The notes beneath the pieces were generated by a model. That model saw nothing but the letters and a program-made list of their open reading frames with translations, did no database searches and had not been told where the DNA came from. A stretch of DNA of 64,000 nucleotides from an uncultured Clostridia bacterium (lineage in GTDB: Bacteria > Bacillota > Clostridia > Christensenellales > CAG-314), in contig CANQGO010000001.1 in NCBI GenBank assembly GCA_947623225.1, positions 1-64,000 on the forward strand, written 5' to 3'. The translations under genes were made by a program, and so were the position numbers. The stretch's first letter is position 1, and every line of letters starts with the position of its first letter. This document shows positions 44,420-47,365 of the stretch, piece by piece.

Positions 44420-44860
44420 TTATTCGATATTTTTATAACTGATCGTAATATGTCCTATTCCGAAAATCAAAGAAAATAATATAAGCGGGATTGACAGTAT
44501 CATAATACCGCTGAACATAAAAATAACGGTGGGCGTTATGGAGAGCCAAAGCATTCTTGCCTTGCCGCGTCCCTTTCTATAAATTACCCATCCCAGCAGA
44601 TACAAGGCGAGCAGCACTCCGTTTACAGATAAGTATACTATGAGCGCGTGCTCGAACCAAAAACCGAAGTAGGTGTGCGGGATATTGAAAATCATAAACG
44701 CCATGCAACCATAACGTCCGATTTGCTCTGCCGCAAGGATGACCTTATTGTCAAATCGATTTTCAAACGCGCCTTTATCGACTACCGCGATGATGATATT
44801 CGGTATCATGATGATTGCAACCGCAATCAAGCCGTAATAATTGAACCAACCCATAATCAC
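44420..44860 (-). CDS. Hypothetical 4-TM membrane protein
   Basis: Multiple hydrophobic segments. Confidence 0.6.
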   Translation of the reverse strand: MIMGWFNYYGLIAVAIIMIPNIIIAVVDKGAFENRFDNKVILAAEQIGRYGCMAFMIFNIPHTYFGFWFEHALIVYLSVNGVLLALYLLGWVIYRKGRGKARMLWLSITPTVIFMFSGIMILSIPLILFSLIFGIGHITISYKNIE

Positions 44861-44923
44861 TTTTTCCGGTGTGTGTCGCGCCTGCTATTAAAATTATCAT
44901 TAATTGTCTCCGCCAAATTGAAT

Positions 44924-45241
44924 TTACCGCTTTTTCACTTTCGGAATTGGCAGGTCGTCATACATTGCCTCAAACAAGCCTGTCAAAAAAGTCCTATCGT
45001 CCACATTGTCCACATTGAGCATCTCCTTTGCGCCTTCATACGGCAAGGAATACTCCGCTTGTGGCAAGTAGGATAGCGCGGATCTCACGGGTTTTACGAG
45101 CAATCTATCGTCGTAGATACCGCCGACAAGTTTACCGCGATAGTAGATCAGAAATTCACCCATCATAGGTTTGTAGGTTATGTCCTTTAAGTCGGATAGT
45201 TGCTCTAAAATGAAATTCAGATATTCTTTACTTGACGGCAT
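44924..45241 (-). CDS. TfoX N-terminal-domain protein
   Basis: ITYKPMMGEFLIYYRGKLVGGIYDDRLLVKPV motif. Confidence 0.85.
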   Translation of the reverse strand: MPSSKEYLNFILEQLSDLKDITYKPMMGEFLIYYRGKLVGGIYDDRLLVKPVRSALSYLPQAEYSLPYEGAKEMLNVDNVDDRTFLTGLFEAMYDDLPIPKVKKR

Positions 45242-45271
45242 GATCCCTCCGCTAAATCTTAATCTATTTTT

Positions 45272-45688
45272 CTATTTTTTTCCCAAAACAAACGAAAAAC
45301 TGCCGTCGCTGCATTTGCCGTCTGATTCAATTATTATGTAAATTGTTTTATTGCCTGTAAAAGTCTCGGTTTTTCCATCAACAGAACCGTTTGTTTCGAT
45401 TTCACATAAGTTCAGCTTTTCATCGTTAAAATCATAGTAAACTTTTATATTTCCTTCTCCCAACTTCGCTTCATAAGTTATAAATACTTCGTCTGAGCTA
45501 TTGTTTTTCAAATGCATTACTAATGTTCCGCTAAAACTATCAAATGAAACCGAAGCTTTATTTGAGGTATTTTCCCTTACCATCAACATAGCACTATAAT
45601 GGCTTACATATTTATTTTCGCAAGCAGATAATGTAAAACACGATACTAATATTACCATTGCAATGATTACACTTGCTAATTTTTTCAT
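45272..45688 (-). CDS. Putative lipoprotein
   Basis: Signal sequence plus lipobox-like TLSAC. Confidence 0.65.
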   Translation of the reverse strand: MKKLASVIIAMVILVSCFTLSACENKYVSHYSAMLMVRENTSNKASVSFDSFSGTLVMHLKNNSSDEVFITYEAKLGEGNIKVYYDFNDEKLNLCEIETNGSVDGKTETFTGNKTIYIIIESDGKCSDGSFSFVLGKK

Positions 45689-45991
45689 AAAAACTTCTCC
45701 TCTAAATTTGAATTTAGCGAATAGTATGTGCTGTTATAATTGTATAGCTATATGAGTTAATAGTTATTATTATATTTTCAATCTCACAATACCAATTTTT
45801 CCTTGTTAAATATATTACAGTTTTTTTTCTAAAATTTTACAATATTCTGCTACATCATGTGTATCTAGTTTTAGATTTTTTTAATTCTATCAATGCTCAT
45901 TTCAGTAGTATGAATTTTATCGATATTTGATAATAATATTTCTTTATTCATATAAGTTAAACCTTTTTCACAAAAATTGAAATTTATCATC

Positions 45992-46507
45992 TTACACCGA
46001 AAAGCGGCTTGCTCTTTGATTACGACGTTCTGTCGCCTCTTTGGAATTATCGATAAATTGATAAATTACTCCATATTCGAAAGAAAAATCTTTTTCAGCG
46101 GGCAGTTCCCACTCGTTTACGTCGATGATCTGCTGTCCTTTGATTTCGGTCTTTTTGCCCAGCCAAAGGTTGACGATCATAAATACGTCTTGTTTGAGAA
46201 GTTGTTTTTTTGCAAATGCTTTCAGCCATTTGAACTCTTCGAGCGCATTTGTCGCGTAGTTTTCCGATATAACAGAGCGATACCGCATTTCGTAATCAAG
46301 ACCAAACTCACTGTCTATGGCATAAAGGCAAAAGTCTTTAAAAACGTTGTGCAAACATTGTTTTTCCTGTTCGGTCAACTCTGTTCTGAACGCTATCCCG
46401 CCGTCGTACCACATATCACCGTTATGTATGGTCGGTAAAATGTCTTTGTATTTGTAAGTCGTCTTTTGCAGCGGTAGCTCTAAAGCCAAAAAACATTTCA
46501 TTGACAT
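45992..46507 (-). CDS. Hypothetical protein
   Basis: Uninterrupted 171-aa ORF with RBS-like ggag upstream. Confidence 0.55.
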   Translation of the reverse strand: MSMKCFLALELPLQKTTYKYKDILPTIHNGDMWYDGGIAFRTELTEQEKQCLHNVFKDFCLYAIDSEFGLDYEMRYRSVISENYATNALEEFKWLKAFAKKQLLKQDVFMIVNLWLGKKTEIKGQQIIDVNEWELPAEKDFSFEYGVIYQFIDNSKEATERRNQRASRFSV

Positions 46508-46782
46508 TGTTATTTTCTCCGCTAAATTCCTGCGTATAATCGCAATTCAGTCGTTTCGTAACGTTTCCATCTTACCATAAAAACAGAGGAAAAGCAAGTG
46601 GCAGGCGGTGTTCGCAAACAAAAATTGAAGGTTCTGTTATTTGTTGCTCTGCCTCGTAAATGTTTCCTTTGGGTAGATCGTTAGGTCAATTCCGATAGGG
46701 TATGCTACTCAAAAATGTTATAGTCACAAATATTGTACATAAAACAAAAGAAAGACCACAATTTTTTGTAGTCTTTCCGACT

Positions 46783-47032
46783 TGGTGCGGATGACAGGAC
46801 TTGTAAGGAGCACAACGTGCGACGGAATAGCGATCGCCACGCAGTCGATCGCGTCACCTGCATGATTTCTCACATGAACCTGAATCATGCGGTCTGCCAC
46901 TCAGCCGAGGATCGAAGAGCTGACCGCCACGAGCCGAAGGCGAGTATTTCGCCCCATATGTAAGGAACCGACCATTGCGGCTGTGGCGAATTGGCAAAAA
47001 AAAGAACGGAGACAAAAATTATGTCTCCGACC
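46783..47032 (-). repeat. 250-bp tRNA-Leu-derived interrupted unit 1
   Basis: Contains the tRNA-Leu(CAG) anticodon/variable/acceptor-3' segments split by inserts; direct tandem copy of 47033-47282. Confidence 0.92.
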
Positions 47033-47282
47033 TGGTGCGGATGACAGGACTTGTAAGGAGCGCAACGTGCGACGGAATAGCGATCGTTACGCTGTCGATC
47101 GCGTCACCTGCATGATTTCTCACATGAACCTGAATCATGCGCGTCTGCCACTCAGCCGAGGATCGAAGAGCCGACCGCCACGAGCCGAAGGCGAGTATTT
47201 CGCCCCATATGTAAGGAACCGACCATTGCGGATGTGGCGAATTGGCAAAAAAAGAACGGAGACAAAAATTATGTCTCCGACC
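47033..47282 (-). repeat. 250-bp tRNA-Leu-derived interrupted unit 2
   Basis: As unit 1, period exactly 250 bp; roughly ten differences by eye. Confidence 0.92.
47247..47279 (-). terminator. Terminator of tRNA-Leu(CAG)
   Basis: Minus strand CGGAGACA...TGTCTCCG hairpin then T-run; also present at the 3' end of unit 2 (47.0 kb). Confidence 0.85.
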
Positions 47283-47365
47283 TGGTGCGGATGACAGGAC
47301 TTGAACCTGCATGATTTCTCACATGAACCTGAATCATGCGCGTCTGCCAATTTCGCCACATCCGC
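47283..47365 (-). tRNA. tRNA-Leu (CAG), intact
   Basis: gcggatgtggcgaaattggcagacgcgcatgattCAGgttcatgtgagaaatcatgcaggttcaagtcctgtcatccgcacca; TTGCTA-17-TATAAT promoter upstream. Confidence 0.95.

Follow-up and report, generated by a model that had tools for sequence, protein, structure and literature searches.

A large family of small hairpin-rich DNA units, probably mobile, at tRNA genes of Christensenellales-like gut bacteria

Here, we describe a large family of small hairpin-rich DNA units that lie beside tRNA genes in Christensenellales-like gut bacteria and are apparently undescribed; a literature search returned no account of them. The starting point is a window of 64,000 nt (contig CANQGO010000001.1, positions 1 to 64,000) from an uncultured Clostridia bacterium, in which two such units follow an intact tRNA-Leu(CAG) gene. 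Units of this kind recur across genomes, end in exact 21-nt copies of the local tRNA, resemble one another in their cores even at different tRNAs, are present or absent at orthologous loci, and contain a spacer stem whose strands covary. We lean, by a small margin over even odds, toward the view that they are small (about 120–350 bp), mostly non-coding, non-autonomous integrative elements that target tRNA genes.

On the minus strand of the window, the tRNA gene (47365–47283) precedes two 250-bp units. The preliminary description reported direct repeats of this period next to an intact tRNA-Leu(CAG), and these are real: TRF finds a tandem repeat at 46776–47303 (period 250, 2.1 copies, 96% matches), while ARAGORN and Rfam find a single intact tRNA and call none in either repeat unit. 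Read 5′ to 3′, each unit opens with a spacer that holds a terminator; next come the 5′ half of the tRNA in inverted copy and a degenerate 5′ segment that terminates in GGCGAA. A hairpin module (A) follows, then the tRNA body (D-loop through T-stem 5′ strand), a second module (B, the 53-nt insert) and the last 21 nt, an exact copy of C56–A76 of the tRNA including CCA. Module A thus stands where the 5′ acceptor half would be, and the inverted copy of that half lies upstream. The features are as follows.

47283..47365, minus strand: intact tRNA-Leu(CAG), anchor of the array (ARAGORN; Rfam RF00005, 54.2 bits)
47247..47282, minus strand: spacer with the terminator hairpin after the intact tRNA (GGAGACATAATTTTTGTCTCCG plus a T run; from the sequence)
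47228..47246, plus strand: unit 2, tRNA 5′ half in inverted copy (GCGGATGTGGCGAATTGGC as read on the plus strand; the tRNA lies on the minus strand; from the sequence)
47151..47199, minus strand: unit 2, module A, at the D-loop position in place of the 5′ acceptor half (the module recurs in relatives and elsewhere in this genome, on contigs C28 and C38)
47107..47150, minus strand: unit 2, tRNA body (3′ side of the D-loop, anticodon CAG, variable arm, 5′ strand of the T-stem; from the sequence)
47054..47106, minus strand: unit 2, module B (GTGACG..CTATTCCGTCGC..GCTCCTTAC type), in the T-loop (R1 match, E 5.6e-12)
47033..47053, minus strand: unit 2, exact copy of tRNA nt 56–76 (CAAGTCCTGTCATCCGCACCA; from the sequence and the 21-nt rule)
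46996..47032, minus strand: spacer and terminator between units 2 and 1, with the same hairpin as after the intact gene (from the sequence)
46977..46995, plus strand: unit 1, tRNA 5′ half in inverted copy, with one substitution (from the sequence)
46900..46948, minus strand: unit 1, module A (from the sequence)
46857..46899, minus strand: unit 1, tRNA body, 1-nt deletion (from the sequence)
46804..46856, minus strand: unit 1, module B (R1 match, E 8.3e-11)
46783..46803, minus strand: unit 1, copy of tRNA nt 56–76, then a different terminator (from the sequence)

Much of the preliminary description agrees with this layout. The CCA end, anticodon and variable part are kept in the units, together with the 5′ part of the T-stem; the GCGATCG/CGATCGC stem of module B is present in both, with differing loops; and the terminator GGAGACA..TGTCTCCG follows the intact gene and unit 2 alike. 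The 53-nt insert exists, but its coordinates needed a shift of one (46804–46856 and 47054–47106, not 46803–46855 and 47053–47105), and the "about ten" differences between the units come to 6 substitutions and two 1-nt indels. The tRNA is interrupted in the T-loop, as proposed, but the units also lack the 5′ acceptor strand and contain module A and the inverted copy. A functional tRNA has a full cloverleaf with a paired acceptor stem; with the 5′ acceptor strand missing and no tRNA called, "decayed" is a partly correct label for the units. We conclude that the window units are tRNA-gene duplicates bearing both modules, with the tRNA body between them. The earlier phrase "tRNA array carrying a short repeat element" was right in essence, except that the element belongs to a widespread family and is no local oddity. 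Folding of a single unit shows only a mild excess of structure over shuffled sequences (z = −1.77); the case that the units are more than chance therefore comes from their recurrence in other genomes. The flanks of the other two tRNAs of the window, Asn (42421) and Leu(AAG) (55883), are ordinary. Four successive small ORFs, one with a TfoX N-terminal domain, occupy 44420–46507 on the same strand as the tRNA.

A covariance model of module B (R1) detects 125 sites in 29 of 61 related genomes; they extend across genera of the family and into two more families within the order. DNA searches of 60 relatives give many further module matches, often at contig ends, and nearly all matches listed in a pattern scan of GTDB genomes are labelled Clostridia or Christensenellaceae. 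Absence from close relatives had been named beforehand as grounds for dismissing the array; the insert in fact recurs in many of them. An assembly artefact was rejected because the two units differ, as the preliminary description had argued, and because the same modules occur at many loci of independent assemblies. The B pattern has no match in IMG/VR, and a phage-borne element was rejected on this ground. Within the genome of the window (G000), which was searched and read in stretches, modules lie beside tRNA-Leu(TAA) (contig C28) and near a tRNA-Ser end (C20), and C34 has B2-type units in tandem. Three tandem 172-bp repeats at positions 1–480 of C38 (L009) combine modules with a tRNA-Arg(ACG)-like body lacking the 5′ acceptor strand, and ARAGORN recognizes none of them as a tRNA. 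One locus, L285 (JAMPAB010000025.1, 21801 bp), is titled Corallococcus sp. and has the same size as contig C17 of G001, a genome of this Clostridia genus; it is probably mislabelled.

We collected 188 non-redundant sites, 145 of them with a tRNA within the fetched locus. Of the 145, 140 lie downstream of their nearest tRNA and on its strand; the tRNAs concerned belong to about 30 species. In 73 cases the 3′ end of the tRNA agrees with the site at 17/17 positions, against mostly 8–10/17 for random other tRNAs. Leftward from A76, the identity covers exactly 21 nt (nt 56–76) in 70 of 79 tRNA/site pairs; rightward, it ends 0–3 nt beyond A76 in 50 of the 79. The stop at exactly 21 nt means that module B ends in ..CTTAC where the tRNA reads ..GTTC, whichever the tRNA. 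The border is C56 or R57, which the invariance of C56 makes inseparable. tRNA genes are classic landing sites for mobile DNA, and duplication of the 3′ end up to CCA, found here as 21 nt in those 70 pairs, is a trait of integrative elements that target them. By analogy, the units would work like such an element, with a crossover in the T-loop, the tRNA restored and a 3′-end copy left behind; they carry no integrase.

The distance from tRNA to site clusters at about 98–112 nt. In the 46 units with about 105 nt, the 5′ strand of a stem, P1, marks the start of the spacer at or near CCA; a long terminator-like hairpin comes next, and the 3′ strand of P1 closes the spacer shortly before the site. 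The mean perfect Watson–Crick helix of P1 is 7.6 bp, compared with 4.7 when strands are paired across units. Weaker excesses over the cross-unit null are seen for the inner hairpin of B (3.9 versus 2.7) and for pairing between left arm and tRNA end (4.4 versus 3.5). On the tRNA-sense strand, 134 of 153 sites have T-G at position 2 of the B outer stem and 18 have T-A. In the comparison of G-T with A-C mismatches, meant to tell RNA from DNA, the B outer stem alone is informative, P1 and P2 having too few internal mismatches. Its asymmetry points to folding of the tRNA-sense strand, in the form of either RNA or single-stranded DNA. The modules are combined in several ways. A is joined straight to B, with no tRNA body, in L093 and L076; a tRNA body precedes B at the tRNA-Thr and initiator-Met loci of G008, and lies between A and B in the window; and A-type modules can also be found 5′ of tRNA-Leu(CAG). 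At other tRNA genes B mostly occurs with no tRNA body; what the units have in common is therefore not a tRNA-like fold, and the earlier suggestion of a tRNA-like read-through RNA is not supported.

Several observations bear on movement. For 50 of 104 cores the nearest neighbour is in the same genome, and for 45 of these it is at another tRNA species; shuffling of labels gives a mean of 7.3 same-genome neighbours and a maximum of 18 in 1000 shuffles. In G022, for example, the elements at tRNA-Ser(gct) and tRNA-Ser(tga) are 90% identical, and each ends in the 3′ end of its own tRNA. The tRNA-Ser(gct) gene has a unit in G022 and none in G016, with upstream sequence conserved and 134 nt downstream 89% identical; because the terminators of the filled and empty loci differ, this pair falls short of a base-exact empty site. 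Among congeners, tRNA-Pro(ggg) has no unit, a whole one or the left part only. Same-genome resemblance together with presence and absence is, as read from sequence, the signature expected of dispersal between tRNA loci, although recombination between units, by changing them in concert, would produce some of the same pattern. Two further observations concern tRNA flanks. The terminator GTGTCGGTCGCATTCTAAAATGCGGCCGAC is nearly the same after tRNA-Ser(gct) of G016 (L440) and after tRNA-Ser(gga) in different genomes (L142, L157), as if downstream flanks had been exchanged between different tRNAs. A stretch beginning AGTCAGTATAATCCGAACC.. follows the tRNA-Leu(CAG) 3′ end in four genomes (L011 5555–5620, on contig C40 of G000; L047; L061; L064), and is probably one attachment junction of a shared mobile element.

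Most of the 114 intervals between tRNA-end copies are 120–350 bp and gene-free, and those without genes cluster at about 140 and 185 bp. About five contain a substantial gene: GmrSD (L207), AbiEii with a partner (L210), a zinc-ribbon protein (L058), a transposase-like gene (L274), and what we read from its sequence as an LRR-type lipoprotein (L049). One site of G005, at a locus with no tRNA, is preceded by AbiE-like genes and a type I restriction system. The sample is too small to claim that defence genes are enriched.

No integrase was seen inside the intervals. None of the candidates for the cognate enzyme, whether Cas1, IntI or an Xer-like gene in the neighbourhood, follows the distribution of the sites. 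That gene, for a recombinase of XerC/D type and about 300 aa, is found close to tRNA-Leu(CAG) or to a thioesterase-like gene in about ten congeners (loci L170, L171, L173, L175, L179 and others). It has a close homologue in about 11 congeners, confined to part of the genus, and is missing from G034, G030, G038, G022, G027 and G000; an integron-like arrangement of this recombinase next to attI was rejected, the gene being absent from the most site-rich genomes. IntI (TIGR02249) has no match over cut-off in 41 genomes, and G030, which is 97% complete, has 11 sites and zero PF00589 matches. A housekeeping XerS-like recombinase (L065) was set aside as uninformative: genes of similar size occur in nearly all site-bearing genomes, as expected in any genome. 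A 408-aa phage-type integrase directly adjoins tRNA-Pro(ggg) on contig C24 of G000 (L390, L068), with similar sequence by tRNA-Pro in several congeners; we read it as part of an ordinary integrated element.

How might integration give rise to these units? Insertion would be anchored in the T-loop at C56/R57 and would leave the last 20–21 nt of the tRNA, to CCA, on both sides, such that the tRNA stays intact. Tandem arrays may form by repeated insertion or by unequal crossing-over between the 21-nt repeats, and genes would sometimes be carried between the tRNA and the distal copy. We infer that the units move or have moved, that a site-specific recombinase supplied in trans did the moving, and that a folded single strand is what it recognizes. 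Against integration stand the lack of any enzyme that tracks the sites, the predominance of gene-free intervals, the inexact empty site at tRNA-Ser(gct) and the lack of IMG/VR matches. A canonical T-loop integrase, moreover, needs a matching 3′ end beforehand in each element, which badly fits similar cores at different tRNAs. It is possible, though we would wager against it, that the units form a cassette system in which a near-universal T-loop motif serves as attachment site: an enzyme would insert hairpin-ended units at any tRNA, regenerating nt 56–76 exactly, and arrays would occasionally capture genes, some of them anti-phage. We file the units as a variant of tRNA-anchored insertion; a new class is possible if an enzyme reads the T-loop of all tRNAs.

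Explanations without integration must also be weighed. The tRNA trailer and B hairpin could be transcribed from the tRNA promoter into an RNA that is processed or regulates in cis, with the 3′-end copy serving as a decoy or as a signal for processing. This is favoured by the compensatory pairing of the spacer stem, by the T-G wobble (rather than A-C) on the tRNA-sense strand of B and by the clustered tRNA-to-site spacing. Still, we consider it unlikely: a terminator hairpin separates tRNA from site in the units read, module A also occurs upstream of a tRNA, and presence differs between relatives. Only tRNA reaches the Rfam gathering score, and a known structured RNA was rejected since the units match no other family. 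Somewhat more doubtful is local duplication and decay of tRNA genes, with hairpin repeats in pseudo-tRNAs whose 3′ ends are kept alike by gene conversion with the neighbouring tRNA. This would account for the tRNA bodies retained in the window and in the G008 units, and tandem copies are common. Many other units, however, have no tRNA body and only the 21 nt, cores are alike across different tRNAs, and conversion tracts are not expected to end exactly at nt 56 in 70 of 79 pairs from all tRNA species.

The two remaining explanations invoke known enzymes. Tyrosine integrases that target tRNAs usually cross over in the T-loop and duplicate the 3′ end of the tRNA, and each 21-nt copy could be the leftover attR of a larger phage or ICE. 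An integrase gene adjoins tRNA-Pro(ggg) in this genome, with similar sequence in congeners. Such relics are improbable as a general account, given the same B at about 30 tRNA species where one integrase normally serves one tRNA, gene-free intervals of about 140 and 185 bp, and the lack of B sites in IMG/VR. Integration of Cas1/casposase type, with the target duplicated beside the T-loop, has a precedent in the A. boonei enzyme, which recognizes TCAAATC upstream of a 14–15-bp target duplication at a tRNA-Pro 3′ end (PMC6614799). Here the duplication is 21 nt, and Cas1 is found in 5 of 16 site-bearing genomes tested and absent from the other 11, including G000, G034, G038, G030 and G022. This distribution largely refutes a casposase, and we give it almost no credence.

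The nearest published parallel we found is the additive flexible genomic island at tRNA-Lys in Ca. Methylopumilus, where the last 20 nt of that tRNA are repeated (PMC10872708). Both systems involve additive insertions at one site; that island, however, concerns one tRNA and gene islands of 330 bp–42 kb, whereas here there are about 30 tRNA species, mostly 120–350 bp of non-coding DNA, and a conserved hairpin beside each tRNA-end copy. Tycheposons, as described in the same paper, are also anchored at tRNAs, but are 4–200 kb in size and use a XerD-type tyrosine recombinase. Family 2 casposons resemble the units in targeting, and duplicating, the tRNA 3′ end near the T-loop; they differ in encoding Cas1, in having TIRs and in a 14–15-bp duplication, in contrast to 21 nt and mostly no Cas1 here (PMC6614799). 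Like integron cassettes, the units are tandem, end in an imperfect-hairpin site (attC in integrons) and sometimes carry a gene. Integrons, though, rely on an attI anchor and IntI, as opposed to a tRNA T-loop anchor, no IntI above cut-off in 41 genomes and mostly gene-free units. When compared by eye with the attC boxes RYYYAAC/GTTRRRY, the left box, of GTTGAAA type, seems not to match GTTRRRY, nor do the R″/R′ motifs seem to fit. With about five of 114 intervals holding a substantial gene, the arrays are not cassette arrays. REP/MITE-type repeats are short, non-coding, palindromic, multi-copy and non-autonomous. The units share these traits, but differ in lying strictly downstream of tRNA genes and in carrying a precise copy of the local 3′ end.

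If integration at tRNA genes is the correct reading, what would be new is a single type of element serving about 30 tRNA species, with a duplication set by tRNA structure and not by sequence. This would imply an enzyme that reads a universal feature of tRNA. It would also help to explain why contigs of these genomes so frequently break at tRNA genes. Finally, hairpin plus 21-nt tRNA tail would be a simple signature by which to locate cargo, including defence genes, in uncultured Clostridia.
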